A DNA stretch of 41,737 bases from Bacillota bacterium (GTDB taxonomy: Bacteria; Actinomycetota; Aquicultoria; Aquicultorales; Aquicultoraceae), in the NCBI GenBank assembly GCA_023511485.1, contig JAIMBH010000020.1, forward strand, positions 1-41,737. The letters run 5' to 3'. Under the pieces are notes generated by a model. The model saw only the letters and a list, made by a program, of their open reading frames with translations, had not been told where the DNA came from and ran no database searches. Positions within the stretch are counted from its first letter, which is position 1; the number at the start of each line of letters is the position of its first letter. The position numbers were made by a program, and so were the translations under genes. This document shows positions 16,385 through 31,697 of this stretch, in pieces.

Positions 16385-16412
16385 TCACTCTTCTAGCGGT
16401 AATTCATCCTCA
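16363..16412. repeat. 25-bp tandem duplication at a cytochrome stop codon
   Basis: Two copies of a 25-bp unit beginning CTCTTCTAGCGGTAATTCAT (16363-16387 and 16388-16412) differ at one base. The stop codon of the twelve-heme cytochrome gene (16385-16387) lies at the junction. Because 25 is not a multiple of three, the second copy shifts the frame. Confidence 0.9.
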
Positions 16413-17827
16413 GGATTATCTGATGGCTTAGTTGGAGGTGAAATTAAATTCTGCCCTTGCCACTTTGGTATTTCTACGTTGCCGGAATCCCAATCGGGTT
16501 GCCAGCTGGGCTGAGACAAAGTATTTTTTGCTGGTCCGTTCTTTGGCTGCACCTGGCCAGTTGTATGGCACTTAGCGCAAAATGTCGGTCCGTGACAGTC
16601 AAAGCAGTATGCAGGTCCGACTCTGTTGACGACATGCTGATGCATTGGTATCCAGGACCCGGGAGGGCCCGTATACCCTTTGTGATGACATGAATTGCAA
16701 AAATCCGATTGCCTGTGGCATTTCCGGCAAACCTCTGGATTTTTTGTGCCGATCTCGCCATGGTTCTCTTTCTTAAATTTCTCCGGGTGGGGAACTTCAA
16801 CGCCATGGCACCCTGTGCAAAACGATTTCTGATGACACATCATGCACGGGCCGATATCTTTAAGAGCGTTCTTGCCGTGGTCCCCATGCAGCCAGGTTCC
16901 GGTTTGATGGTCCAGCTCGCCACTTGATGGGATTATATTGAAGCTCTTTGGATGGCAGGCAGTGCACCTTCCCGGTGCGATGGCCGATTTCGAAAGCCCG
17001 TGGCAGCGGAAGCAGCCCTGCATGCTGATAAAAGTCTTGTAGCCGGCGCTTCCCGGATGCCCGGCCCGGTTGTGGCATGTAGTACAGTTGATCCCTTTTT
17101 CAATATGGATGTTGTGGTTCATAACCAGGGTTCTTCTTGGCGTGATCACCCTTTTAGGGGTATGGCATTTAAGACAGCTATTGTTATCTATTGCTTTACT
17201 TAGCGAACTATCAGCGTTGATTGTTGGGCTGCCGCCTGTCTGCCCATAGGATTTGGTAAAGTGGTAATAAATGTGCGATACCAAAGCCGCCTTTTGCTTA
17301 AAGAAGCCAACGAATCCCGGATAATGGCAGGTATTGCAATCTACCTCCTCGTGAATCGACTCCTTCCACGCCTCATAGGCGGGCTCCATCTCGTGGCAGC
17401 TTTTACAGAAATCTGGTTGCGCGATGTATGATGATGCAAATCCCAGCACGATAAGAACCAGTATTGCCACAACTGCGCCCAGGATTAGGGGTGCCTTCGG
17501 GTATTTGCCGAGCAGCTCTTTTATGCCGGGCAGTCTTGGGCCTGACATTGCGGATTTTGCGCCAAACCTGCGAGCCTTAGATCTAAGGCCAAATCCCGGC
17601 CATTTAGGTTCCGGCTTGAGGCCAAGTACCTGCGACTCCGTTGCAGCTTCACCGTATTTGCTATCAAGCGCTTCTGATGTGCTTGGGCTCGGGCCTGTCT
17701 TTCTAGGTTTTTGCCAGGGCAAATTTAGCCTAAAGCGTGGGAGTTTTGTTTTTTGTCCCGGGACTTTTAGCTTGAACTTCGGGGGCTTAGATTTAGGTTT
17801 TAGCCATCGAAAATTAAATTTAAACAT
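16385..17827 (-). CDS. Membrane-anchored twelve-heme cytochrome c with basic N-terminal region
   Basis: About 480 residues. The first 110 or so are unusual: rich in Lys, Pro, Phe and Arg with near-repeats ('PPKFKLKVPGQKTK', 'LPRFRLNLPWQK'), predicted cytoplasmic. A membrane anchor follows, then twelve CxxCH motifs: CKSCH, CNTCH, CLKCH, CTTCH, CFRCH, CTACH, CMMCH, CTGCH, CRKCH, CNSCH, CFDCH, CAKCH. The first pair has the full NapC/NirT pattern 'CHEM...AWKESIH...C', consistent with quinol oxidation. The tail is acidic and Pro-rich. The start is uncertain: ATG 17827 has a distant AGGTG, and GTG 17845 has no site. It lies downstream of the Rex-like gene on the same strand. Confidence 0.9.
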   Translation of the reverse strand: MFKFNFRWLKPKSKPPKFKLKVPGQKTKLPRFRLNLPWQKPRKTGPSPSTSEALDSKYGEAATESQVLGLKPEPKWPGFGLRSKARRFGAKSAMSGPRLPGIKELLGKYPKAPLILGAVVAILVLIVLGFASSYIAQPDFCKSCHEMEPAYEAWKESIHEEVDCNTCHYPGFVGFFKQKAALVSHIYYHFTKSYGQTGGSPTINADSSLSKAIDNNSCLKCHTPKRVITPRRTLVMNHNIHIEKGINCTTCHNRAGHPGSAGYKTFISMQGCFRCHGLSKSAIAPGRCTACHPKSFNIIPSSGELDHQTGTWLHGDHGKNALKDIGPCMMCHQKSFCTGCHGVEVPHPEKFKKENHGEIGTKNPEVCRKCHRQSDFCNSCHHKGYTGPPGSWIPMHQHVVNRVGPAYCFDCHGPTFCAKCHTTGQVQPKNGPAKNTLSQPSWQPDWDSGNVEIPKWQGQNLISPPTKPSDNPEDELPLEE

Positions 17828-17914
17828 TTTGCTAAATTTTAGCACCTGATAACTATATTAACAAGCGGAATCAACCAAGATGTCAACTGAGGGCGCTGCA
17901 GCAGGCATCCTGCT

Positions 17915-18601
17915 CTAATCGTCCACAACGGTTGTTGCGGGGGGCTCCTGATGCTCCAGTAAATTAGCGTAATAGAAGAGTGATTTCAGTCCGCAAGCAA
18001 TGCCAAGCTGCATGATATGGACTCCAGGCGGCGTGTTTGTAACCTCCGATTGGGTTAGCACCAGGATACTTTTGATCCCGGCCTGGACAAGAAGGCCAAT
18101 GCTGTGGTTCAACCAGGTAGGATGGGTTGCAACTACAGCTACTCTTACTCCCAGGTCGACTATTGTCTTGGATATTGCTTCAATCGCCTGAACCTCATGA
18201 CCGTAAATCCATGCGCCGTGGTCTCGTGGGTCTTCGGAAAAAAACGCGGCAGGGGTAAAGCCAAACTTTTCAATTGGGAAGTAGTCGAAAAATGATCTTA
18301 CAACGGAAGTTGAGCCTACAAAAGCAACCGGAGCAAATTGCGGCAGCGACAGAAAATCTCCAATCATGCGCCTTAAGCTACTGATATTATAACCGCTTCC
18401 GCGTTTCCCCGGCGTCTCTCCCATAAACATGAGGTCACGCCGTATGGTCGATTCATTTAAACCCAATGCATTGGCTAGCTCCTTGGAGGTAATCGTATCG
18501 TTCTTCCTAGCCAGCAGCATATCGGTTAATTTGCAATGATACAGGGCCAGCCTGTGCAGTGACTCGGCCGGAACTGACTTTAAATTTATTGAATCATGCA
18601 A
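17915..18601 (-). CDS. Divergent Rex-like redox-sensing regulator
   Basis: About 228 residues matching the architecture of Rex repressors: an N-terminal winged helix ('ITSKELANALGLNESTIRRDLMFMG', then 'GKRGSGY') and a Rossmann-like domain ending in the Rex-type swapped C-terminal helix ('CGLKSLFYYANLL'). Rex proteins normally bind NADH through GxGxxG; here that loop reads 'VGSTSVV', so cofactor binding may be changed or lost. The start is TTG at 18601, 9 nt after GGAGGT; an ATG at 18637 has no site. It is embedded among cytochrome genes and probably controls them, possibly sensing something other than the NADH/NAD ratio. Confidence 0.8.
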   Translation of the reverse strand: MHDSINLKSVPAESLHRLALYHCKLTDMLLARKNDTITSKELANALGLNESTIRRDLMFMGETPGKRGSGYNISSLRRMIGDFLSLPQFAPVAFVGSTSVVRSFFDYFPIEKFGFTPAAFFSEDPRDHGAWIYGHEVQAIEAISKTIVDLGVRVAVVATHPTWLNHSIGLLVQAGIKSILVLTQSEVTNTPPGVHIMQLGIACGLKSLFYYANLLEHQEPPATTVVDD

Positions 18602-18675
18602 CAGGACACTACCTCCTGCATTTACGCTTATATGCATAACACAATTATAACTTAAACCAGTAAATAAAAGAACCC

Positions 18676-18693
18676 TGTATTATATAAATAACA
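18676..18693. promoter_or_regulatory. AT-rich imperfect palindrome upstream of the Rex-like gene
   Basis: TGTATTATATAAATAACA is an imperfect palindrome similar in style to Rex operators of Gram-positive bacteria. It also contains a TATAAT -10-like hexamer on the minus strand. It could be an autoregulatory site. The match is weak. Confidence 0.3.
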
Positions 18694-18741
18694 GAACTCT
18701 GAGTTGGTAAGCAGGGGAGATTCTAATGAGCATTTAGAGGT

Positions 18742-19338
18742 TTAGTGGGAGAACTGACTAGAGAATGCAAAACGCTTATTATGGCAGAAAGAGCATTCGT
18801 TTCTGCGCTCGGCATGGCATTTAAAGCAAAGTTTTCTTTTAGGGATCAGATCACCTATGCTTCCAACACGCGGATGGGCTGCCCCTGGATGGCACGTTGT
18901 GCAGGAAATATTTGCTTTTAAGACATGAAGCTTATGGTTAATCTTGATATCACCAGACTCTGATGTAACTCTATTTAAACTATGGCAACCCTTCCTCTGG
19001 CAAGAAGCTACACCCGGCAGGCTTGCACCAATTGGCTTTAAATCTGCTCCTACCATGCTTGCATATATCTCACGGTAAAAACTTATCCTGTATATGAAAA
19101 GATTCAGAGTACCTTGCTTCACATGGCAGTGGAAGCAGTTGTTTGCAGCAGTTGCATGGGAAGACTTTTTCCATGAGTCGTAATAAGGCTTCATGGAATG
19201 GCAGCTAGTGCAGCTTTGAGCATTGGACGTATATATGTAGGGAATCGCATAGAAGGCCAGCAGAAATACAAAAGCGGCCACTAAATATTTGACCGCTCTT
19301 TTTGCTCTTTTATCGCCCGTTTTAACCGATTTGCCCAT
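18742..19338 (-). CDS. NapC/NirT-like membrane cytochrome with six heme sites
   Basis: A 198-residue protein with one N-terminal membrane anchor (about residues 16-37) and heme motifs CTSCH, CFHCH, CQRKGCH, CTTCH, CFKCH, CSFCH. The first shows the quinol-site pattern 'CTSCHSMKPYYDSWKKSSH'. The third is a CX4CH motif, a non-standard heme attachment known from some tetraheme cytochromes c3. It is the smallest of the NapC-like set and is followed by the Rex-like gene. It is probably a membrane electron-entry or relay protein. An AGGT lies about 13 nt before the ATG. Confidence 0.9.
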   Translation of the reverse strand: MGKSVKTGDKRAKRAVKYLVAAFVFLLAFYAIPYIYTSNAQSCTSCHSMKPYYDSWKKSSHATAANNCFHCHVKQGTLNLFIYRISFYREIYASMVGADLKPIGASLPGVASCQRKGCHSLNRVTSESGDIKINHKLHVLKANISCTTCHPGAAHPRVGSIGDLIPKRKLCFKCHAERRNECSFCHNKRFAFSSQFSH

Positions 19339-19419
19339 TTTAGCCCATTTTACCTTTTTAGATCTTTTTATTTCCTGCCTTTATGATTTATATTTATCCA
19401 GCAGGGATGGGTCTTTAAA

Positions 19420-20241
19420 CTAGGGCTGTACGCCGTGGCACCTCATACAGAACTCGTTCTTGTGGCAGGCGTTGCATCCTGCACGGTCTGTCTTGGCACG
19501 GTCACCGTGCTTGCTTCTCCAAAGCGTTAGGTGAGACTGCGGTTTTTGCTTATGGCATTGCATACACCAGTCCGGCCTCCAGTTATGGCACTTACCGCAG
19601 TTTACGATCTTTGACATTTGCCCGTGCACCTGGAACCAGTTGGCTTGCTTATGGCTTTCCGGAACCGCTTTTTTGGTATGGCAAACACCACATTTATTTG
19701 GAGCCTTCTTGCCATCGTGGCAAGTCAAGCACGTTTCCATCTTTGGCTTTCTCTGATCGGCTTCACCGTGCGCTACTCTGGAATGGCAGGTTGGGCAGGT
19801 GAGCCCTTTCTTAATATGAAGCTCGTGTGGAACCCTAAGGTCGCCTGAGAAGGAATACATCCTGTTAAGTGAGTGACACTGCAGGCACGCCTCATTGATT
19901 GGCTCCATATCCTTTGCGATAATCTTCGGCGGGTTTGGCTTGTTATACACAGTAAAGTGCAGGTAGAGCTCTTTCATCGCCTCGATCTTGTGAATCATCT
20001 GCGCTGTCAAGCTTGGGTGTACGTGGCACTGGATGCAATTTACCTCTTCATGGACAGAGGATTGCCAGGTCTTATACATCGGCTTCATCTCATGGCAGTT
20101 AGAGCAGAAGCCTGGCGTTGATGTAAAGACCAACCCCGCGTAACTGACAACCACGAGGGCGATTACAGCTATTACCGCTATGTTTACTACTCTTGTGTGG
20201 TTTTGATAGAATTCCTTTATTTTATCCAACAAGCTGCTCAC
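19420..20241 (-). CDS. NapC-like membrane ten-heme cytochrome c
   Basis: A 273-residue protein with one membrane anchor (about residues 19-41) and ten CxxCH motifs: CSNCH, CIQCH, CLQCH, CPTCH, CLTCH, CGVCH, CGKCH, CMQCH, CNACH, CMRCH. The first pair reads 'FCSNCHEMKPMYKTWQSSVH', the NapC/NrfH-type quinol site with Met after the heme. It is closely similar in layout to the ten-heme gene just upstream, suggesting duplication. The start is GTG at 20241 with AAGGA about 11 nt upstream; the gap to the upstream gene is 17 nt, so the two are co-transcribed. Confidence 0.9.
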   Translation of the reverse strand: MSSLLDKIKEFYQNHTRVVNIAVIAVIALVVVSYAGLVFTSTPGFCSNCHEMKPMYKTWQSSVHEEVNCIQCHVHPSLTAQMIHKIEAMKELYLHFTVYNKPNPPKIIAKDMEPINEACLQCHSLNRMYSFSGDLRVPHELHIKKGLTCPTCHSRVAHGEADQRKPKMETCLTCHDGKKAPNKCGVCHTKKAVPESHKQANWFQVHGQMSKIVNCGKCHNWRPDWCMQCHKQKPQSHLTLWRSKHGDRAKTDRAGCNACHKNEFCMRCHGVQP

Positions 20242-20258
20242 CGCTTCTTATATCCTTC

Positions 20259-21149
20259 CTACTTTTTCTCAGAGAAAGTTCCTTCGTCATGACACCTGAA
20301 GCAGAATGTCTCTTTATTATGGCATACAAGGCAACCGTTATAATTAACACGGGCTCTTATGCTATGGTATGTACGCCACTCAGTGCCGCCATAATGGGTG
20401 GACGGGCGTTTGCTCTGATGGCACTGGCTGCAGAAGAATGGGGTCCAACCATGGCATCTCTTGCAGTTACTGTCCTCATGTGATGGGTCTTTAGCCACAA
20501 GGCTGTGTATCTCAAACCACTTTGCATCTTTGTGACTTTCTGGAATTGCCTTTTCAGTATGGCAATTCTTACATGTTAAAACAGGCGCATTAAATGTCTC
20601 ACTAACGTTTTTGTTACCGCCGCCGTGGCAGCTTAAGCAAAGCTCCATGGCCGGCCTTCTGATAAATTTGCCCTCAAGGTTGGCTCCATGAACTACGGCA
20701 AAGTGACATTTCACGCAAGGGATTCCTTTGTCAAGGTGTTTCTGGTGTGGGATAATTAAATCACCAGAGGGAGAAACATCACGCCAGCTAACATGACAGT
20801 TCTGGCAGACCTCGGTCTTGATATGCGTCTTGGCTTTAATTGGCTCGGTGTAATTACCGCTAACATGAGCCACTACACTTTCAATCTTGTGCGGTATTCC
20901 CAGGATAAAGCCCTTTATGCCCGGAGCTGGATTGTGGCAGTTTGGGCAGCCAATCTTTTCATGGGATGAACCCTGCCAAGATTTGATGGCTTCACCCATC
21001 TCATGGCAGGTCGCACAGGTTTGATATCGGGCGGCTATGGAGTTACCCAAGAAAAGACCGGCGATGATTAGAACAACCAGTGCTCCAAGTTGATACAACA
21101 GCAGTCTTTTCTTTTTAGGGTCCATGTCTTTTAAGTTTGGTAATTGCAT
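20259..21149 (-). CDS. NapC-like membrane ten-heme cytochrome c
   Basis: A 296-residue protein with one membrane anchor (about residues 17-38) and ten CxxCH motifs: CATCH, CPNCH, CQNCH, CVKCH, CLSCH, CKNCH, CKRCH, CSQCH, CLVCH, CFRCH. The N-terminal pair has the quinol-site arrangement 'CHEMGEAIKSWQGSSH'. It shares with the next gene the conserved pieces 'LCLSCHGG' / 'TCLTCHDG' and 'AIPESHKDAKWFEIH' / 'AVPESHKQANWFQVH', so the two are paralogues. It is the first gene of the run 21149 to about 18742, after a 425-nt leader region. Confidence 0.9.
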   Translation of the reverse strand: MQLPNLKDMDPKKKRLLLYQLGALVVLIIAGLFLGNSIAARYQTCATCHEMGEAIKSWQGSSHEKIGCPNCHNPAPGIKGFILGIPHKIESVVAHVSGNYTEPIKAKTHIKTEVCQNCHVSWRDVSPSGDLIIPHQKHLDKGIPCVKCHFAVVHGANLEGKFIRRPAMELCLSCHGGGNKNVSETFNAPVLTCKNCHTEKAIPESHKDAKWFEIHSLVAKDPSHEDSNCKRCHGWTPFFCSQCHQSKRPSTHYGGTEWRTYHSIRARVNYNGCLVCHNKETFCFRCHDEGTFSEKK

Positions 21150-21574: not shown

Positions 21575-22294
21575 TTAACTTCCGACTCCCTGGATATAGT
21601 TGTTAATTATATTTAAATATCCGGTAAGGATAAGGATGCCCATTATAAGCAAAAGTATGCCGCTTATAATGTTTATTGTTCTAAAGTTTTTCTTAATCCA
21701 CTGGAAGGCCCCAAGAGCAGTATTGAAAAACAATGCTGTTGCTATGAATGGAATTCCAAGCCCCAGCGCATAAACGCTGAGAAGCAGTGTACCTTGGTTT
21801 ACGGTGCTGGTAGTTGCCGCCATCGAAAGAATTGTACCTAAATAAGGCCCGACACAGGGCGTCCAGGCAAACCCAAAGGCAGCACCCAGCGGGAGGGCTC
21901 CCCAAATGCCAATTTTAAGGTTGCCCATGTTTAGCCGCTTTGTCTCGTAGAGTTTCGGTATTTTTATTAGCTCCATCGAAAACAGCGCAAAGATTATAAT
22001 GACGATACCCGCGATTTTCATGAAAATCGCGCGGTAGGAAATAAGCCAGGAACCGAGGAAACCAGCGGATGCTCCAAGCGCTACAAAAATAATTGTAAAC
22101 CCGAGGACAAAAAGAAGCGTTGCGGCAATGACTCTTACTCTGTTCTGGGTGGATGTTCTACCCAGGTCATTGACCGAGATGCCCGATATAAAGGAGAGGT
22201 AGCCGGGAATGAGCGGCAGCACGCATGGTGAGGCAAAGGATGCAATCCCAACGAAAAATGCCATATATATACTAATGTCTGGACTACCGTTCAT
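21575..22294 (-). CDS. ccdA: CcdA/DsbD-type thiol-disulfide transporter
   Basis: A 239-residue integral membrane protein with six hydrophobic segments and the two family cysteines in 'FASPCVLPLIPGYLSF' and 'FAWTPCVGPYLG'. CcdA passes reducing power across the membrane to thiol proteins that keep apocytochrome CxxCH cysteines reduced for heme attachment, which fits the many cytochromes downstream. ATG at 22294 has AGGGGG 5 nt upstream, and this site lies inside a CsoR-like operator, so copper may influence expression. Some copper and iron uptake loci also carry CcdA, so it could serve the neighbouring metal island as well. Confidence 0.92.
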   Translation of the reverse strand: MNGSPDISIYMAFFVGIASFASPCVLPLIPGYLSFISGISVNDLGRTSTQNRVRVIAATLLFVLGFTIIFVALGASAGFLGSWLISYRAIFMKIAGIVIIIFALFSMELIKIPKLYETKRLNMGNLKIGIWGALPLGAAFGFAWTPCVGPYLGTILSMAATTSTVNQGTLLLSVYALGLGIPFIATALFFNTALGAFQWIKKNFRTINIISGILLLIMGILILTGYLNIINNYIQGVGS

Positions 22295-22554: not shown

Positions 22555-22597
22555 TTGCCAGATTGCTAGATAAAGTGATATACTACATAGCATAGTA
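22555..22597 (+). promoter_or_regulatory. Promoter with BlaI-type operator
   Basis: TTGCCA (22555-22560) and TATACT (22579-22584), the latter preceded by TG, are 18 nt apart. Overlapping the -10 is TACTA-CATAGCA-TAGTA (22581-22597), close to the TACTACATATGTAGTA-type sites of BlaI/MecI repressors. This suggests autoregulation of the blaI-like gene. Confidence 0.65.
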
Positions 22598-22694: not shown

Positions 22695-23114
22695 GTGAGA
22701 AGGTTCAAGGTAAGTAGCTTCAGACCAAGCGAATCGGGGATTAGAAAGGTGCTTGGAGACCTTGAAGCCGACATAATGGAACTTATGTGGCAGAAAGGTG
22801 TATCTAGCGTGCGCGAGATATACGAATTGCTTGCAAGAAATCGCGAGATCGCCTACACGACAGTTATGACAGTAATGAGCCGCCTGGCTGATAAGGGTAT
22901 TCTTAATAAAGAGCGCGATGGCAAGCACTACCTGTATAGACCCGCAACAAGTAAGGAAGAGTTCAGCCGGACGATGTTTTCCTCCGTCCTAAGAGGGCTT
23001 AAATCTGATTTGGGTGCGCAGGCACTTGCCTTCTTTGTTGATAATTTTACCGAAGACGAAGATACGTTAAACGAGCTTGAGAGACTGATACAAGAAAAAA
23101 GGAAACGCTCTTAA
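22695..23114 (+). CDS. BlaI/MecI/CopY-family repressor
   Basis: A 139-residue winged-helix protein. The core 'LGDLEADIMELMWQKGVSSVREIYELLARNREIAYTTVMTVMSRLADKGILNKE' is the family DNA-binding domain, and the C-terminal half is the dimerisation helix region. Family members are released from DNA either by cleavage by a BlaR1/M56 protease or, for CopY, by copper. An M56 protease follows directly, so proteolytic control is likely. The start is GTG at 22695 with AGGGG 7 nt upstream. Two matching operators (22581-22597 and 24114-24130) suggest it controls itself and the downstream transport genes. Confidence 0.9.
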   Translation: MRRFKVSSFRPSESGIRKVLGDLEADIMELMWQKGVSSVREIYELLARNREIAYTTVMTVMSRLADKGILNKERDGKHYLYRPATSKEEFSRTMFSSVLRGLKSDLGAQALAFFVDNFTEDEDTLNELERLIQEKRKRS

Positions 23115-23115
23115 G

Positions 23116-24096
23116 ATGACTAAAACTGCGTCAAGAAACACAAAAATAAGTTTAATAAGCCTGGGTGCACTTGGTATATTTGCACTTCTGGCGGTTGCTT
23201 ACAACATGGATAAGTGGTTTGCCGGAGGAATAGCGGTAAAAAAGATTACTCAGGCTTGCGATATTGTGGGTAGCGGCTGCACCGGAGCAATATCCTCGAT
23301 TTTCGACGTTGTTGGCAATCCGCAGCAGCTTTTCTTAAGTGCTGCTCTTGCAACACTTGCCTTTGCTTTGCTAAAAGCAGCTGCGGTCATTATTTCCGCA
23401 CGGCGAGCAGCTGCAGGTTTCAAAAACTCTGACTTTGTATCCCCGCGTGTTCAAGCAGCTCTTAAAGACCTGGGGTTTGAAGATATACGAGTAAGGATAG
23501 CTAATAATCCAAATCCTATTGCTTTTACCTATGGTGTGCTTAAGCCGACAATCTGTTTGTCAAGTGGACTGATTGATAGCTTAGGCGATGCGGAGTTGTC
23601 ATCGCTCATAGCCCATGAGGTGGGACATGTCAAACGACGTGACAATTTGGCAATACTCTTAGCTATCTTCATCCGGGATTTTCTGTGGTTGCTTCCAATT
23701 AGCCACTACCTGTTCCGGGTCTTTGTTTATGAGAAGGAGTACGCGGCGGACGATTTCGCAGTAAAGGTCACTGGAAAACCGGTTGAGTTGGCAAGTGCAA
23801 TAGTAAGTGTGGCCAAAGCTGCTCATAGCAGGCGATACCTTTTGCCTGCTTATGCGACTTTTTTCTCTGATAAAGCCACAGCCAAGCACAGGGTGCAGAG
23901 GCTTCTAGAATTTGGCGACCAGGTAAGGCCGTCCTTTTATAAGTTGGCAGTAAGTGCCCTGCTTAGCTTGGTCATAGTAGCCGGTATGCTTGGTATAGCT
24001 TACGCCCAGCCATCTGGTGAGGCTGGAAGTTATAGTCAGTGCAGAATGGATAGTGCTTGCGTAGAGCAGAATTATAGCTGTTGCAATTTAAAGTAA
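23116..24096 (+). CDS. M56 (BlaR1-type) membrane metalloprotease with Cys-rich tail
   Basis: A 326-residue membrane protein with the zinc-protease motif HEVGH (about residues 167-171) and the third-ligand region 'YEKEYAADDFA', as in M56/BlaR1 proteases. Membrane segments lie near 13-30, 70-95, 180-197 and 282-300. It has no C-terminal penicillin-binding sensor domain; instead it ends in a short tail with four cysteines ('SQCRMDSACVEQNYSCCNLK'), predicted extracytoplasmic. It probably cleaves the BlaI-type repressor encoded just upstream, and the Cys tail could sense metal or redox. The last point is inference. Confidence 0.88.
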   Translation: MTKTASRNTKISLISLGALGIFALLAVAYNMDKWFAGGIAVKKITQACDIVGSGCTGAISSIFDVVGNPQQLFLSAALATLAFALLKAAAVIISARRAAAGFKNSDFVSPRVQAALKDLGFEDIRVRIANNPNPIAFTYGVLKPTICLSSGLIDSLGDAELSSLIAHEVGHVKRRDNLAILLAIFIRDFLWLLPISHYLFRVFVYEKEYAADDFAVKVTGKPVELASAIVSVAKAAHSRRYLLPAYATFFSDKATAKHRVQRLLEFGDQVRPSFYKLAVSALLSLVIVAGMLGIAYAQPSGEAGSYSQCRMDSACVEQNYSCCNLK

Positions 24097-24113: not shown

Positions 24114-24130
24114 TACTATTGGCTGTAGTA
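24114..24130 (+). promoter_or_regulatory. Second BlaI-type operator
   Basis: TACTA-TTGGCTG-TAGTA has the same half-sites and the same 7-nt spacing as the site at 22581-22597. It lies about 70 nt before the DUF2318 gene, so the repressor probably also controls the transport operon. Confidence 0.6.
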
Positions 24131-24200
24131 GCACAGCGGCACCTATTAGTGTCACTGTATGGGAGATTAAAAAGATAAACCAAAGAAGGTGGGTAAAAGG

Positions 24201-24878
24201 ATGGATAAAAAGGACCAATTCAAAAACGACCGATCCAGGAATAAAAGAGAGCAGTTTGTAGGCTCAAGGGGAAGCTCCAAATCCATGTATATAGCAGTAG
24301 CAGCTGCTGTTCTTTTGGTTATAGTAGCTGGTTTTCTTTATGCTGGGTCAAAGAATAAGGCTGCTACTGGGCAGGTAGATCCCAGGGAAGCTAAATATAT
24401 AGGCCGGTACTTAACCCAAGGCTTTGCGCCGGCCAAGCTAACCGAGCCAATCAAGTATGATAAAACAATTGAGCCGCTTGATATCAAGCCAGAGGTCAAA
24501 GATGGCAAGGTTCTAATCAACGTTGGCGATGTTATAAGCAGCAGGATGGTCTACTTCGAGTATACAAGACCTTCCGATAATCAAGTCATACCCATGCTGG
24601 CTTACATAAAGCCGTCGGGTAGGCTTTTTACCGGGGTAAGCCTGTGCCCGCCCTGCCAGGCAAAGAAACAGCACTTTGAATCCGATAATCTGCTTACGTG
24701 CAATTCATGCGGCACAAAGAGGGATCCGGAAACCCAGGCAGGCATCTCGGGTGCCTGCAAGCTCTATCCGCTTGATGAGATGCCGCATAAGCTGGTTGGG
24801 GACAAAATTGAGATCGCGGAAGCCGACCTTGCAAAGTGGACACCGCAGCCGCTCGACCGGCCTGTCGGTTCAGAATAA
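24201..24878 (+). CDS. DUF2318 membrane protein
   Basis: About 225 residues with a basic N-terminus, one membrane segment (about residues 26-46), and a C-terminal cysteine cluster 'CPPCQAKKQHFESDNLLTC' followed by 'NSCGTKRD' and 'GACKLYPL'. DUF2318 proteins are predicted metal-binding membrane proteins that occur beside ABC permeases in P19/FetMP-like iron or copper uptake loci. ATG at 24201 is chosen because AAGGTGG lies 8 nt upstream; a GTG at 24189 is less likely. It begins the five-gene transport operon. The bound metal cannot be read from sequence. Confidence 0.85.
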   Translation: MDKKDQFKNDRSRNKREQFVGSRGSSKSMYIAVAAAVLLVIVAGFLYAGSKNKAATGQVDPREAKYIGRYLTQGFAPAKLTEPIKYDKTIEPLDIKPEVKDGKVLINVGDVISSRMVYFEYTRPSDNQVIPMLAYIKPSGRLFTGVSLCPPCQAKKQHFESDNLLTCNSCGTKRDPETQAGISGACKLYPLDEMPHKLVGDKIEIAEADLAKWTPQPLDRPVGSE

Positions 24879-24916: not shown

Positions 24917-25432
24917 ATGGAGAAAAGTAAGACTAATGGACCTACCACTGGGGCCACGGAGGTGGAGAGCATGGAAAGCTCGGCCAAAACCGCCTCCAGC
25001 AAGAAACAGCAAATCATTAAGTATGCAGCGGTATGGGTTGCACTCGTTGCCGCCTTTTTCATCGTTAACATGGTCATAAAATCTGTGGTGGCCACGGGAA
25101 ATGTCCAGAACCAGGGTGGCTATTACACAAGCAGTATCCCGGCATCAAACAACTATGCAGTTCAGGCAGATCTGGCTCCAGGGGCTGGATTTGGCAGTTG
25201 CGGAGCCGGAGGGGCTTGCTGTGGTACAAGCTCACAGGCCACCGGCGAAAAGACCAATTTTAAACAGCTTGAGAAGGTTGCAATCGACTGGTATACAAAA
25301 ACCTATGGCGACTCAAACGTAACGGCAGAAGTCAAGGACTTTGGCTGCCACCAGCAGGTAAATATCCTAAAGGATGGCAAGGTTATAAAAGAACTTGAAT
25401 ACCGAAACGGACAACTAAGGCCGATTAATTAA
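24917..25432 (+). CDS. Cys-rich single-pass membrane protein of the metal-transport operon
   Basis: A 171-residue protein with one membrane segment (about residues 36-58), a small Cys/Gly motif 'GSCGAGGACCG' near residues 93-103, and a C-terminal domain 'AIDWYTKTYGDSNVTAEVKDFGCHQQVNIL'. The family is not recognised. The cysteine cluster and the 'FGCHQQ' site suggest metal or thiol chemistry outside the membrane. It has a strong AAGGAGG site and sits between the DUF2318 gene and the ABC permeases, so it may be a metal-binding partner of the transporter. Confidence 0.75.
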   Translation: MEKSKTNGPTTGATEVESMESSAKTASSKKQQIIKYAAVWVALVAAFFIVNMVIKSVVATGNVQNQGGYYTSSIPASNNYAVQADLAPGAGFGSCGAGGACCGTSSQATGEKTNFKQLEKVAIDWYTKTYGDSNVTAEVKDFGCHQQVNILKDGKVIKELEYRNGQLRPIN

Positions 25433-25494: not shown

Positions 25495-26655
25495 ATGAAA
25501 TTGCGCCATATAACCTGGAAGAACATAAAAGAGCACCCGTCGAAGGTCGCCCTTTTGATCGTCTCGTTGGCAATTGGGGTGGCAACAGTCGTAATCCTGT
25601 TTAGTATATCAAGAGCGATGTTTATCGATTTGCAGGACAAAATCGACGAGTACGGCGCCAATATGGTGGTCGTGCCAAACTCCAAAACCCTGCCGCTTAC
25701 CTATGCTGGGGTTACAGTTGGTGGCCTGCAATACGAGTCGGCGACGCTTACTGAAGCGGATGTGGCTAAAATCCGCACAATTGAGAACCGGGCCAATATA
25801 AACGTGGTTGCACCAAAGCTTTTAGGTATCGTTTCCATCAAAGGACACAAGAGCGTTATTGCCGGTGTACATTTTGCCGATGAGTTGAAGATTAAAAAGT
25901 GGTGGAATATAAAATCCGGCATCCGCCCGGGTGGTAACCGTGAGCTACTGTTGGGAGGAAAGGCTGCTCAGGTATTAGGTTTAGGTGTTGGAGATAGTGT
26001 AGACATCCAGGGTGAGAGTTTTAAGGTAGCCGGAGTACTCTCTCGGGTTGGAACGCAGGAGGACGAGCTTATCTATCTTGATCTCAAACAGGCTCAGACA
26101 ATTTTAAATAGACCCGGTGAGGTAAGCCTGGTTGAGGTTTCCGCCTGGTGTAAGAATTGCCCGATAGCAGACATCGTAGAGCAAATCAGTGCTAAATTGC
26201 CCAATGCTAATGTATCTGCGGTAAGACAGGCCGCAGAAGCTAGGGATTTGGTTATTAACCATTTCATTCTCTTTTCGGCAATTCTATCAGCTACGATGGT
26301 CGCAGTTGCTATATTAATAGTTTTTACGAACGTATTAAGCTCGGTCAGAGAAAGGCGCCGGGAAATCGGGATATTCAGAGCGGTTGGTTATCGCAAATCC
26401 CATATCCTTAAGGTTGTTTTGCTAGAGACCGGCGTTGCAGGTATATTGGCGGGATTGGTTGGCTACCTCGCTGGATTTTTCGGTGCCAGTGCAATCGCAC
26501 CGCTGGCGGTCGGAATCGATGTTGGAATTAAATTCGACCCTGTACTTGCAGGTGCCTCAGTCGGTGGAGCGGTTCTCATCGCGCTTCTGGCAAGCCTGTA
26601 CCCGGCAATACTTGCCTCACGTCTTAACCCGGCCGAGGCCATAAATGCGCTGTGA
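25495..26655 (+). CDS. FtsX/MacB-type ABC transporter permease
   Basis: A 386-residue protein with the MacB layout: one N-terminal membrane helix (about residues 18-40), a large extracytoplasmic domain, and three C-terminal helices ending 'ASRLNPAEAINAL', the standard family ending. The extracytoplasmic domain carries a 'WCKNCPIAD' cysteine pair that the second permease lacks. ATG has TAGGAG 6 nt upstream. It pairs with the next permease and the ATPase. The DUF2318 context suggests metal handling rather than lipoprotein or macrolide export. Confidence 0.9.
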   Translation: MKLRHITWKNIKEHPSKVALLIVSLAIGVATVVILFSISRAMFIDLQDKIDEYGANMVVVPNSKTLPLTYAGVTVGGLQYESATLTEADVAKIRTIENRANINVVAPKLLGIVSIKGHKSVIAGVHFADELKIKKWWNIKSGIRPGGNRELLLGGKAAQVLGLGVGDSVDIQGESFKVAGVLSRVGTQEDELIYLDLKQAQTILNRPGEVSLVEVSAWCKNCPIADIVEQISAKLPNANVSAVRQAAEARDLVINHFILFSAILSATMVAVAILIVFTNVLSSVRERRREIGIFRAVGYRKSHILKVVLLETGVAGILAGLVGYLAGFFGASAIAPLAVGIDVGIKFDPVLAGASVGGAVLIALLASLYPAILASRLNPAEAINAL

Positions 26656-26682: not shown

Positions 26683-27840
26683 ATGAACATACAAACCATA
26701 GCAATCAAAAATATAATAAGGCGCAAGGGAAAGATGGCCCTTACCGTGATTGGGCTGGCGGTCGGTGTAGCCACGCTGGTTGCAATTGTTACGGCTATGC
26801 TTGGGTTCCAGAGAAGTATCGATAAAAAGTTCGATGCCTTTGGATTTAACATCATCATCTATCCTTCATTCTCAAACCTGTCCCTATCCTACGGCGGCAT
26901 GAACATATCCGGCGTTGATACATACAGCGTAAAGTCACTTAGTTTAGAAGATGTCGAGCGGATCAAAAAAATACCCAGCGCAGACAAAATCGCTGCCGTA
27001 TCGCCTAAGCTTTTAGAAGTCGCCGAAGTTAAAGGTAAAAGAGCACTTCTTGTCGGGACAGATTTTAACCAGGAACTGTCGGTCAAGAGGTGGTGGCACT
27101 TAAACGGAGAAAAGCCGGGAAGTGATGATGAAGTCATCATCGGGGCTGATGCTGCCAGAGAGCTTAAGCTCTCTGTAGGGGATAGGTTTGAATATGGTGG
27201 CAGGGTATTTAAGGTCTCTTCGATACTGGATAGCACAGGAAGCCAGGATGACAGTCTTATCTTTGCCGATTTAAACCAGGTCCAGTCAATCGCTAATAAG
27301 GCTGGCAGTTTGAGCCTAATCGAGGTCTCTGCAAGGGGCGGCGGGGATATTGATACGGTTGTAGAGGACCTTGAGAGAGCGATTCCAGAGGCGTCGGTAT
27401 CTTCTATAAAGCAGGCAGTCCAGTATAAAGAAAAAGCAGTTGGTTCGCTGGCTAATTTTGGTTTGGCAGTGAGTGCGGTAATCATCATGATCAGCGGTTT
27501 GATAGTTTTTACTACCATGGCCTCTTCGGTAAGTGACCGCAAACGTGAGATCGGTATATTTAGAGCGATAGGGTACCGGCAATCTACCGTCGCCAGAATT
27601 ATATTTACGGAAGCCTTTATTTTAAGTCTTATTGGAGGCGTTACCGGATACATTGCCGGATTTACCCCGATTTATATACTGCCGGTTGTCCTGAAAAAGA
27701 TCGACCTTTCCGTCAACCTTAATCTGTTTGTTTTGGCCATGGCTGTTGGTCTTGCAGTCTTTATAGGCATAGTGGCTAGCTTGATACCGGCAAGAAGGGC
27801 TGCAAATATGGATCCGGCCGATGCGCTTAAAAGTTTATAA
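26683..27840 (+). CDS. FtsX/MacB-type ABC transporter permease
   Basis: A 385-residue paralogue of the preceding permease with the same layout: N-terminal helix, extracytoplasmic domain, three C-terminal helices, and 'ARRAANMDPADALKSL' at the end. It has a strong GAAGGAGG site. The two probably form a heterodimer in the membrane. The cysteine pair of the first permease is absent here ('VSARGGGDID' at the same place), so the two halves are not equivalent. Confidence 0.9.
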   Translation: MNIQTIAIKNIIRRKGKMALTVIGLAVGVATLVAIVTAMLGFQRSIDKKFDAFGFNIIIYPSFSNLSLSYGGMNISGVDTYSVKSLSLEDVERIKKIPSADKIAAVSPKLLEVAEVKGKRALLVGTDFNQELSVKRWWHLNGEKPGSDDEVIIGADAARELKLSVGDRFEYGGRVFKVSSILDSTGSQDDSLIFADLNQVQSIANKAGSLSLIEVSARGGGDIDTVVEDLERAIPEASVSSIKQAVQYKEKAVGSLANFGLAVSAVIIMISGLIVFTTMASSVSDRKREIGIFRAIGYRQSTVARIIFTEAFILSLIGGVTGYIAGFTPIYILPVVLKKIDLSVNLNLFVLAMAVGLAVFIGIVASLIPARRAANMDPADALKSL

Positions 27841-27852
27841 GGAGGAGAGTAA

Positions 27853-28587
27853 ATGCCTTTGGTTTTGGCAGAGAGTTTAAGCAAATATTATGGGGGCGGT
27901 GGGGGCACGAGGGTTTGTGCACTGGATGGCGTCAGCTTTGCTATAGAGGAGGGCGAGTACGTTGCGGTTATGGGTCCGTCGGGCAGCGGAAAGAGCACGC
28001 TGCTTGCGATACTTGGGGCGATGAGCCCACCAAGCAGCGGAGCCTTAACCATAGATGAGATAGAAGTCTACGGTCTTCCGCAGGAGAAGAGGGCAGACTT
28101 TAGGCGTGAGTATCTGGGATTTGTCTTCCAGCAGCTTCAGCTTATCCCGTATCTTTCTGCGCTTGAGAACGTTATGCTTCCCCTGGTTATCACAAATCAT
28201 AAAGACAAAGATAAGAAAGAGCTTGCACTAAACACGCTTGCAAAGGTTGGACTTGCAAATAAGGTAAATCGTCTTCCGTCAGAGCTATCCGGTGGCGAGC
28301 AGAGCAGGGTTGCGATCGCCCGTGCGGTAGTAAACAACCCTCCAATACTTCTTGCCGACGAACCGGTGGGGAGTCTTGACACCAAAACAGGGAACGAAGT
28401 CCTTGAGCTTTTTAAGAAACTCCATGAAGAGGGCCAGACGATAATTATGGTCACACATAATCCAGAGTCAATCCGCGATGCCGGCCGCCTTATTACGCTA
28501 AGGGACGGACGCATAGTGGAAGATATAAAGGCAAACGATATTGACGGTATGCGGCTAACCGAGTGTGCGATCTTTACCGATGTCTAA
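27853..28587 (+). CDS. LolD/MacB-type ABC transporter ATP-binding protein
   Basis: A 244-residue ATPase with Walker A 'GPSGSGKST' (about residues 40-48), signature 'LSGGEQSR', Walker B 'ILLADEP' and the His switch 'VTHNP'. It matches the LolD/MacB group that works with FtsX-type permeases. It follows the permease by 12 nt with AAGGAGGAG upstream. Its last four bases overlap the end of the convergent csoR gene. A glycine-rich insert ('YGGGGGTR') near residues 14-21 is slightly unusual. Confidence 0.93.
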   Translation: MPLVLAESLSKYYGGGGGTRVCALDGVSFAIEEGEYVAVMGPSGSGKSTLLAILGAMSPPSSGALTIDEIEVYGLPQEKRADFRREYLGFVFQQLQLIPYLSALENVMLPLVITNHKDKDKKELALNTLAKVGLANKVNRLPSELSGGEQSRVAIARAVVNNPPILLADEPVGSLDTKTGNEVLELFKKLHEEGQTIIMVTHNPESIRDAGRLITLRDGRIVEDIKANDIDGMRLTECAIFTDV

Positions 28588-28859
28588 GCTTTTACAAAAC
28601 GCTCGATTACATCGATAAGCTCCTGGATGGTAGCATCCTCGCCTCCATTTACAAGGGCGTTTCTAATACAGCCCTTAATATGATCATCGAGGATAATGAA
28701 ACCGACTCTTTGTGTGGCACCTAATACGGAAGAGATTTGCACCAGGATATCGACGCAATACTTGTCATCCTTAACCATTCGCTGGATGCCGCGAAGCTGC
28801 CCTTCAATGCGTTTTAGCCGTGATAAGATTTTTTCTTTATCGGCCGAGTACGACGCCAT
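28584..28859 (-). CDS. csoR: Copper-sensing repressor CsoR
   Basis: A 91-residue all-helical repressor of the CsoR/RcnR family. The copper ligands are visible as Cys in 'KYCVDIL' and His and Cys in 'DDHIKGC', the Cys-His-Cys pattern typical of Cu(I) sensors. 'LSRLKRIEGQLRGIQRMV' is the family N-terminal signature. ATG at 28859 has AGGGGG 5 nt upstream; an upstream TTG at 28922 lies in the promoter and is rejected. It is divergent from copA, with operator-like sites at both promoters. Confidence 0.93.
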   Translation of the reverse strand: MASYSADKEKILSRLKRIEGQLRGIQRMVKDDKYCVDILVQISSVLGATQRVGFIILDDHIKGCIRNALVNGGEDATIQELIDVIERFVKA

Positions 28860-28864
28860 AAAAT

Positions 28865-28915
28865 CCCCCTGTATACGTATACCCCTATTATTATGAAATA
28901 CAGCGATTGTGTCAA
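28865..28915 (-). promoter_or_regulatory. csoR promoter and CsoR-like operator
   Basis: On the minus strand TTGACA (28910-28915) and AATAAT (28887-28892) are 17 nt apart, an excellent promoter. The operator-like block 28865-28886, with TATACCCCTA and a GTATACGTATAC centre, follows immediately and reaches the ribosome-binding site. This fits autorepression. Confidence 0.7.
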
Positions 28916-28967
28916 TATTCACACGCGTATCATATCATTAGCTTGTAATTTCAACATTATTGGCGTG

Positions 28968-29243: not shown

Positions 29244-31697
29244 GTGACAAAAAAATATATTTTACCGATTACAGGGATGACCTGAGCATCATGCGTACGT
29301 CGTGTGGAAACGGCACTCGGTCGACTTGAAGGCATAAAAAGTGTAAATGTAAGCCTCGCGAACCAAAAGGCGGTTATCGAAGCCGATGGCCCTAATGTCA
29401 ATGTTGCTGATTTGATCAGGGCTGTTGAGGATTCTGGGTATCACGTGCCGGTTGATGAGATAACTATTTCAATCGGCGGCATGACTTGCGCCTCTTGCGT
29501 AAGAAGAGTAGAGCAGGCTTTGTTAAAGATAGACGGTGTTATCGAGGCCAACGTAAACCTTGCAACCGAGAAGGGTACCGTAAGGTATATTGCCGAGATG
29601 GCGGGCCCGCGCGATTTAAAGCAGGCGGTAAAGGATGCAGGCTACGAGGTCAAGGAAGAGAATCAAGCAGGTGCCCCAAATAAGGAAGAAATTAAAGACC
29701 CGAAGCAGATCGAGATTGCGGGTCTTAGAAAACGGCTTGTAGTGGCCGCAGCACTGACCGCTGTAATCATGGTCGGAAGTATGCACGAGCTTATCCCGGC
29801 GCTTGAGCTTATCCCAATGCAGGTCCGGTTTATTGCATTACTTGTCCTTACAACCCCAGTTCAATTCTGGGCAGGTTGGCGGTTCTATCGCGGGGCGTAT
29901 TTGACCGCAAAACATGGCAGCACCGATATGAATACGCTTGTCGCTGTGGGTACATCGGTTGCATATCTATACAGTGTTGCAGTTACTTTCTTTCCAAAGT
30001 TTTTTGCTGCACAGGGATTGCAGCATGGAGTCTACTACGACACAGCGGCAACTATTATCACCTTAATTCTGTTTGGGAGATATCTTGAGGCTAAGGCCAA
30101 GGGTCGAGCCTCAGATGCCATAAAGAAACTTTTAGGCTTGCAGGCTAAGACAGGTCGCGTTGTGCGAGACGGGCATGAGATTGATATCCCGATTGAGGAT
30201 ATTCAGGTGGGCGACATTGTTATTGTTCGCCCGGGTGAGAAGGTGCCGGTTGATGGCACGCTTATCGAGGGCCATTCATCTGTTGACGAGTCGATGATTA
30301 CCGGCGAGAGCATCCCGCTTGAGAAGCGCGAAGGCGATACAGTCATCGGCGCCACGATTAATAAGAATGGCACTTTTAAGTTTAGGGCAACAAAAGTCGG
30401 CTCGGAGACAGCTCTAGCTCAGATTATACGCCTTGTTGAGGAAGCGCAAGGTTCAAAGGCCCCCATACAGAGGCTTGCCGATGTTGTTGCGAGTTATTTT
30501 GTCCCAACGGTTATTGCAATCGCACTCATTACTTTTGCTGTCTGGTACCTGTTTGGTCCTAAGCCAGCCTTTACGACAGCTTTACTCAACTTTATTGCAG
30601 TTCTTATTATAGCCTGCCCGTGCTCGCTTGGTCTGGCGACTCCGACTGCGATCATGGTTGGGACCGGCCAGGGGGCACAAAATGGTATCTTGATTAAAGA
30701 TGCGCAAGCGTTGGAAAACGCACATAAGATAGACACCATTGTCTTAGATAAGACGGGCACGCTTACTCAAGGCAAACCCGTGGTGACCGACATCCTGGCA
30801 AGAAATGGTTTTTCCGAGTCAGACATCCTGCGTTTTGCGGCATCTGCCGAACGGGCTTCCGAGCACCCGTTAGGTGAGGCAATTGTTGCAAAAGCAAAAG
30901 AAGCAGGGGTTGTGCTTGTAAGCCCTGATGATTTCGAGTCTTTTACTGGGCGTGGAATCAGTGCCAAAATCGACGGGCGCCGGGTAATGCTTGGAAATCT
31001 TCGTCTTATGCAAGAGCACAACGTTTCACTGGATGGATTATCCGACCAGGCAATAAAACTGTCTGAGGAAGGCAAAACGCCGATGTTTATCTCGGTCGAC
31101 TCACAGGTTGCCGGCATTGTTGCAGTAGCTGATGTGCTAAAGCCAAATTCAGCCTCTGCAGTTAAGAGATTGCAAGAATTGGGACTTGAGGTCATTATGT
31201 TAACTGGCGACAATAAGCGAACAGCCATAGCAATAGCCAGTCAAACTGGCGTAAATCGAGTTTTGGCTGAAGTGCTTCCGGCCGATAAGGCTATTGAAGT
31301 GAAGCGGCTTCGGGAAGAAGGTAAAACTGTAGCTATGGTTGGCGACGGAATAAATGACGCGCCAGCTCTTGCTCAGGCTGATATCGGTATCGCTATTGGT
31401 ACAGGAACCGACGTTGCTATCGAAGCATCTGATATCACGCTAGTGGGTGGCGATTTACAGGGTCTGGTGACTGCAATCGCGCTATCGCGAAAGACTTTAA
31501 AGACGATATACCAGAATCTCTTCTGGGCGTTTTTCTACAACGTCATACTTATTCCAGTTGCCGCCGGCGTGCTCTATCCAATTTGGGGCATCCGGCTTGA
31601 CCCGATGTATGCCGCAGCGGCGATGGCGTTTAGCTCGGTATCGGTTGTCTCGAACTCGCTGAGGCTTAGACGCTTTAAGGCGCCGCAAGTACAGTAA
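29244..31697 (+). CDS. copA: Copper-transporting P1B-type ATPase with in-frame UGA (possible selenoprotein)
   Basis: 817 residues if the TGA at 29283-29285 is read as an amino acid. Two N-terminal HMA domains come first: 'GMT-X-ASC' at residues 11-17, where X is the TGA, and a normal 'GMTCASC' with Cys 82 and 85. Eight membrane helices follow, with the Cu(I) site CPC at 458-460, the phosphorylated Asp of DKTGT at 502, 'SEHPLG' and 'GDGIND'. It pumps Cu(I) out of the cytoplasm. The start is GTG at 29244 (AAGGAG 13 nt upstream), the only usable start after an upstream in-frame stop. No start with a ribosome-binding site exists just after the TGA, so either the TGA is recoded (selenocysteine) or the gene is damaged or mis-sequenced there. 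Confidence 0.88.
29299..29325 (+). promoter_or_regulatory. Possible bacterial SECIS-like hairpin in copA
   Basis: Downstream of the TGA, GTCG/CGAC and GTG/CAC can form a bulged stem with a 7-nt apical loop (GAAACGG, 29307-29313). The loop begins 21 nt after the TGA with G in first position, as expected for bacterial SECIS elements. Folding was done by eye, and an alternative stem (TGCGT/ACGGCA) is possible. Confidence 0.35.

Follow-up and report, generated by a model that had tools for sequence, protein, structure and literature searches.

The Locus and Its Orthologues

The window (the whole 41,737-nucleotide stretch of DNA that was analysed) carries on its forward strand, at 23116..24096, a gene with an ATG start for a 326-residue M56 BlaR1-type membrane metalloprotease that ends in a cysteine tail. 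The first-pass annotation had described the M56 core as complete and the beta-lactam sensor domain as missing, and both descriptions are borne out. In Pfam the protein scores 49.2 bits against Peptidase_M56 (PF05569; cut-off 31) and 51.7 bits against Peptidase_M48, and its HExxH...ExxxD site is intact: H167, E168 and H171 of the HEVGH zinc-protease motif (residues 167-171; 23614..23628, forward strand) are invariant in all 12 orthologues, as are E208 and D212 of E208-x3-D212 (23737..23751, forward strand), which by analogy with the HEXXH...E of BlaR1 is the expected third zinc ligand region. No PBP/beta-lactamase-type sensor domain (SXXK) was found when the full protein was compared with Pfam, the C-terminus lies about 28 residues beyond the last transmembrane helix, and the NCBIfam BlaR1 models score 34.6, far below their cut-off of 400.

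The orthologues are full-length matches of 435-564 bits in 12 of the 36 genomes of the class, with the next matches at 191 and 153 bits. Ten come from the 11 genomes of the organism's own family (relatives of Candidatus Aquicultor), one from the same order (G325) and one from the same class (G233); these genomes are akin to one another, and the x-of-y counts given here are not independent events. The family genome G001 has no M56 orthologue and stands outside the 12, and loci with other cysteine-tail patterns in G223, G244, G250, G045 and G004 were counted apart. A search of the genome contigs with an alignment found nine loci (seven in the own family, and the relatives G223 and G233).

A Partner Repressor Without Cysteines

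Upstream of the protease gene lies a gene for a BlaI/MecI/CopY-family repressor (22695..23114, forward strand; PF03965, 98.6 bits), and the M56 start follows, or overlaps, the repressor stop. Orthologues of the repressor are present in all 11 genomes of the family. Its best PDB match by sequence is 2g9w, which we take to be BlaI of M. tuberculosis (Rv1846c).

The CopY/TcrY repressors, which belong to the same family, carry a C-terminal CXC metal-binding motif (PMC7253601), unlike the repressor of the window, which has no such motif and no cysteine at all; moreover, CxC-x3-6-CxC is found in none of the 14 aligned repressors, and the CopY_TcrY model reaches 67.3 bits, below its cut-off of 121.95. 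With zero cysteines, direct metal sensing by the repressor in the CopY manner is therefore ruled out. The operators differ as well: the CopY/TcrY operator is RNYKACANNTGTMRNY, whereas the 24 operators described below are TACTA-N7-TAGTA and none contains TACANNTGTA. Finally, the repressor here is paired with a membrane protease.

An Asn-Phe pair lies near the S. aureus cleavage position in the window repressor, and the other 13 of the 14 aligned repressors have different residues there. Because the pair is not conserved, we rejected it as an S. aureus-type cut site and make no claim about where the repressor is cleaved.

Paired Operators

The exact pattern TACTA-N7-TAGTA occurs in the window only at 22581 and 24114. 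Operator 1 (TACTACATAGCATAGTA, 22581..22597) stands before the repressor gene, and operator 2 (TACTATTGGCTGTAGTA, 24114..24130), which the first-pass annotation had already named, stands before the downstream operon; both recur at the same places in 12 of 12 orthologous loci. Over these 24 sites the outer arms are invariant and the inner bases vary. Written as TACTAY-N5-RTAGTA, the geometry is the same as that of the C. thermocellum BlaI sites, where six-base inverted repeats are separated by five bases (PMC8457756). A putative sigma-70-like promoter for the repressor-protease unit, TTGCCA-18-TATACT (22555..22584, forward strand), has 10 of 12 matches in a consensus scan, and its -10 element overlaps operator 1; over the promoter region as a whole, promoter-like sites are no more numerous than in shuffles.

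The genome-wide count of operators was discarded as evidence, with four exact sites in the 2.37-Mb own genome (G000, which carries the window on contig C20) against eight for the reversed control and hence no enrichment. Our argument is for this reason built on position and conservation. Two of the four sites are those at the protease locus, one lies before a selenothioredoxin gene (L040) and one in coding sequence (L043); at a density of 4-8 sites per 2.37 Mb, chance would produce a pair within 1.6 kb far less than once. Among the matches listed, at least one exact operator is present at 16 of 17 loci with a short cysteine tail, versus none of the 21 M56 loci without one, for which the flanks covered were about 1.5 kb (shorter at contig ends). 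These 21 are a subset of the M56 matches. Seven of these 21, from which two HtpX-like loci (L192, L193) were excluded, have two cysteines inside a long (>100-residue) C-terminal part.

A Metal- and Thiol-Related Operon

Behind operator 2, on the forward strand, lies a gene for an FtrD-like (DUF2318) membrane-anchored protein with the pattern CPPC-x14-CNSC-x15-C (24189..24878; PF10080, 51.6 bits, cut-off 26.3). It is followed by a membrane-anchored protein with a C-x5-CCG motif (GSCGAGGACCG; 24917..25432), which has no Pfam or NCBIfam match and whose position is taken by a homologue in orthologous loci, by two FtsX/MacB-type ABC permeases (25495..26655 and 26683..27840; PF02687 and PF12704 in each), and by an ABC ATPase of the LolD/MacB type (27853..28587; PF00005). 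The P19 iron cluster of C. jejuni (Cj1649-1656; CJJ81176_1649-1656) shows the same gene order, with a DUF2318 protein followed by two permeases and an ATPase, and DUF2318 genes are almost always found within such clusters (PMC6083913). A full P19 system was nevertheless rejected here, P19 (PF10634) being absent from all 11 family genomes; FTR1 (PF03239) occurs in two of the 11, never at the protease locus, and is absent from the own genome, and the operon differs further in its extra CC protein and in the repressor and M56 protease in front. By homology, the operon is a partial P19/Cj1651-1654-type metal cluster, and what the first-pass annotation had called a metal-transport operon holds up as a metal/thiol-related one.

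Beyond the operon follow two neighbours, a CsoR/RicR-type metal repressor with its own regulation (28584..28922, reverse strand; PF02583, 98.2 bits; RicR model 89.7, below its cut-off of 175) and a CopA-type P-type ATPase (29304..31697, forward strand; TIGR01511, 652 bits, cut-off 397). Wherever a family contig extends far enough, CsoR and CopA come next after the operon, and at the distant loci of G244 and G004, which have other cysteine tails, a DsbD-cupredoxin fusion, a CACCG cupredoxin and CopA come after the protease. At the G325, G223, G250 and G045 loci, copA was not seen. On the other side, divergent from the repressor gene, lies a CcdA/DsbD-type membrane thiol-electron carrier (21575..22294, reverse strand; PF02683, 57.4 bits), an arrangement found in nine of the nine family contigs that reach that far. 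Upstream of CcdA, the window contains a run of multihaem c-type cytochrome genes (16385-21149, reverse strand); the only one of the run that was scanned, 19423-20241, is of the NapC/NirT type.

A glycine-rich CCG/CACCG motif is common to different membrane-anchored proteins of these clusters, namely the window protein at 24917-25432, L094 9466-9972, the CCG reading frame of L095, L096 4064-4552 and the cupredoxin reading frame of L099. This motif is perhaps a metal-handover site.

One relative offers a natural deletion. G001, of the same genus and 97% complete, retains the repressor (78% identical), operator 1, CcdA, CsoR and CopA, and has lost the protease, both permeases and the ATPase at the locus. 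At the scar, the protease reading frame breaks off near codon 12 and the sequence continues inside the FtrD-like gene, around its middle (L101 2990-3180; G001:C34), and the residual FtrD-like reading frame lacks one cysteine of the second CxxC. A search for permease 1 gives at best 47.5 bits in G001, versus at least 356 in the nine family genomes with the gene assembled (the G002 contig stops before permease 1). Protease and transporter were lost together, which is suggestive only, because a single species is concerned.

An Invariant Cysteine Array Predicted on the Outer Face

Seven cysteines are encoded in the protease, at positions 48, 55, 147, 309, 315, 322 and 323. The first-pass annotation had counted four of them in the last 20 residues and had named a tail that was cytoplasmic or not conserved as grounds for abandoning its proposal. 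These four (C309, C315, C322 and C323; C-x5-C-x6-CC; 24040..24084, forward strand) all fall within the last 18 residues and are invariant in 12 of 12 orthologues. Equally invariant are two that it had not mentioned, Cys48 and Cys55 (C-x6-C; 23257..23280, forward strand), which structural alignment places in an outer loop equivalent to EL1 of BlaR1. Across the 12 orthologues, pairwise identity is 1.0 for the six cysteines predicted outside, compared with means of 0.26 for the 20 non-cysteine tail columns, 0.43 for the other EL1 columns and 0.62 for the protease core; Cys147, predicted inside, is kept in 10 of 12. With about 26% identity in the remaining tail columns, the invariance of the six goes beyond chance. 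The five distant loci (G223, G244, G250, G045 and G004) have short tails with two to five cysteines in other patterns, and the tail cysteines are absent from four paralogous M56 proteins of the same genus (G000, G001, G002).

An AlphaFold2 model of the protease, built from 10 sequences, has a mean pLDDT of 71.9 and a pTM of 0.70, with pLDDT below 50 at residues 51-67 and 299-326, that is, in part of loop 1 and in the tail. Foldseek places BlaR1 at ranks 1-3 for this model, with M48/M56-like proteases of a general kind in the rows below; for the tail no structural match came up, which is uninformative given its low model confidence. When aligned to S. aureus BlaR1 with VIA-align (Z 14.0, 207 residues, rmsd 3.4 A), residues 1-253 fall onto BlaR1 23-286. 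From this alignment, the N-terminus seems to correspond to the start of the second BlaR1 helix, so that the model lacks an equivalent of the first transmembrane helix of BlaR1, the loop at about 36-68 seems to correspond to EL1 (56-96), and the C-terminus seems to follow the last helix outward. In all 12 orthologues the net charge of residues 1-12 is positive, as expected for an N-terminus inside. The outer-face tail of the first-pass annotation therefore agrees with what both the BlaR1-like model and this charge predict.

At the end of the last transmembrane helix lies a signal-peptidase-like sequence, AYA|Q (residues 295-298; 23998..24009, forward strand), with AxA or AxG in 12 of 12 orthologues. 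In S. aureus BlaR1, SpsB cleaves at the equivalent position, between Gly331 and Gln332 (PMC9834060). By analogy, signal peptidase may cleave at AYA/Q, and the tail may be shed.

A Wider Regulon

The operator is also found away from the protease. A gene for a thioredoxin-like lipoprotein with an in-frame TGA at the first CxxC position (UxxC) lies at L040 1051-1443 (G000:C7:49148-49540), and such genes are also present in L050 and L158-L165. The gene occurs in 10 of the 11 family genomes and was not found in G296 (77% complete). It likely encodes a selenoprotein, and the own genome (G000) has a gene for SelB. An exact operator precedes the gene in G000 and G002, and one with a single mismatch in G074; none with at most one mismatch was found before it in the other seven of the 10 genomes, G001 included. 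In several RNA folds, made without a control, a hairpin appears about 20 nt past the TGA. The SAO selenoprotein organometal system, considered as a candidate (compare PMC13188914), is unsupported at the one model cut-off, that of SaoT, where the operator-linked selenothioredoxin scores 26 against 65.

Further operators stand before a TPR/HMA/DsbD run in G325, where this is the third operator, and at the head of second FtrD-like runs unlinked to the protease in G045 and G250 (L152 and L153); these runs contain a zinc-ribbon gene in both genomes and CcmH in G045. Thiols and metals are the common theme of these wider targets.

Paralogous BlaI-M56 pairs without a cysteine tail adjoin a radical SAM protein at L053 2609-5657 (G000:C17) and L094 4019-7070 (G233:C8), the assignment (PF04055) coming from a profile scan of L053. 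These pairs form a different system, possibly a peptide-modifying one.

Comparison with Known Systems

The pair shares much with BlaR1/MecR1 and BlaI/MecI, including the M56 fold, the HEXXH...E site, outer loop 1, a C-terminus outside (here by prediction), an adjacent repressor partner, paired operators and a signal-peptidase-like site after the last helix. However, BlaR1 has a beta-lactam sensor domain, whereas the protease here has none and instead carries six invariant cysteines predicted outside; likewise, the target of BlaR1/MecR1 is beta-lactamase, whereas here metal/thiol genes take its place. The architecture is BlaR1-like and the sensor is lacking, and therefore we assign the system to the M56-BlaI kind rather than to the BlaR1 beta-lactam receptors. 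M. tuberculosis BlaI with its sensorless BlaR resembles it in having an M56 partner without a sensor and, through 2g9w, in the repressor. For that sensorless BlaR1 homologue, PknB has been proposed as a substitute sensor (PMC9834060), in a passage that mentions no cysteine tail, and the regulon differs from the one described here. A BlaR1 homologue without a sensor is thus already known, and the new part is the conserved cysteine array. In the open-licence literature, we found no report of a metal- or cysteine-sensing M56/BlaR1 protein.

What the Protease May Sense

The protease probably informs the cell of external metals or of the external redox state. Our best explanation, which we hold to be about evenly balanced between right and wrong, is that it is a BlaR1-type transducer in which the beta-lactam sensor has been replaced by a six-cysteine thiol sensor, such that metal or redox conditions lead to cutting of the repressor and induction of the operons. 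The conserved array, the repressor and the operators are established, and from them we infer the later steps by analogy. Six outward cysteines, those of the C-x6-C in outer loop 1 and of the C-x5-C-x6-CC tail, would together make up a single thiol site. An external thiophilic metal, in the first place copper(I) but possibly zinc, silver or mercury, would bind or bridge these cysteines, or their disulfides would change, and loop 1 and the last helix would then shift as in BlaR1, where EL1 occupies the sensor, passes on the signal and, together with the outer sensor, moves the protease (PMC9834060). The cytoplasmic protease would cut the BlaI-type repressor, which would leave TACTA-N7-TAGTA. Induction would then extend to the repressor-protease unit and the FtrD-CCG-FtsX-FtsX-ATPase operon, and in some relatives to the unlinked selenothioredoxin gene; their products may move or detoxify metal and keep outer thiols reduced. 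The metal- or redox-triggered signalling put forward in the first-pass annotation is in this respect partly supported.

Copper is the first candidate trigger, followed by iron and thiol redox, because cupredoxins and CopA accompany the protease in G244 and G004 and because CsoR and CopA follow the operon in the own family. Against copper, the related cluster of C. jejuni is one for iron uptake (PMC6083913), a cytoplasmic repressor of the copper type, CsoR, already adjoins the operon, and four of the loci, as given above, showed no copA. More specifically, the protease may be the first BlaR1-type receptor of extracytoplasmic copper or another soft metal, with a metal bridge between loop and tail, the BlaR1 lever, and shedding of the tail by signal peptidase as the reset; in this full form we regard the proposal as tentative and on the doubtful side.

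CcdA, the operator-linked selenothioredoxin and the CcmH-type genes fit redox sensing as well as they fit metal. It is thus conceivable, if somewhat unlikely in our estimation, that the same array senses not metal but thiol/disulfide state, with disulfides between loop and tail holding the protease off or on and the state being reported through CcdA and the membrane-anchored selenothioredoxin, in a bacterium with many multihaem cytochromes. The invariably divergent CcdA gene, the operator before the UxxC thioredoxin-like gene (exact in two of 10 genomes and with one mismatch in a third) together with the encoded SelB, and the operators before the TPR/HMA/DsbD, zinc-ribbon/CcmH/FtrD (G045) and zinc-ribbon/FtrD (G250) runs all argue for such a role. 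On the other hand, seven of the 10 genomes have no operator before the selenothioredoxin gene, the main target operon includes components of metal type, and vicinal CC motifs are well suited to capturing soft metals.

Invariant cysteines on the outer face often form disulfides, and the six may accordingly be structural, bracing loop 1 and the tail while the signal comes from elsewhere, such as a partner protein, a lipid or a kinase. The PknB proposal for the sensorless M. tuberculosis homologue (PMC9834060) is consistent with a signal source of this kind. Nevertheless, we consider this improbable, since cysteine-tailed M56 proteins are, among the matches listed, tied to one operator and to metal/thiol clusters (16 of 17 loci versus 0 of 21) and since the four M56 paralogues analysed from the same genus have no such tail. 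Very improbable indeed is that signal peptidase I releases the tail at AYA/Q as a metal-binding peptide of about 28 residues and four cysteines, leaving a protease that is a transducer or is constitutively active: the AxA or AxG at the helix end and the equivalent SpsB cut would favor it, but that cut has been interpreted as turnover rather than function (PMC9834060), and the tails of G244, G250 and G004 have no clear AxA.

M56-BlaI pairs without a beta-lactam sensor were found in many of the searched genomes. With a defined six-cysteine array, an operator and a target operon, the question of what serves as input to such sensorless pairs becomes directly testable at this locus. If the six-cysteine transducer is real, the BlaR1 lever would be a general chassis that accepts different outer sensors, and these bacteria would possess an outside sensor of metals or thiols distinct from both histidine kinases and cytoplasmic metalloregulators.
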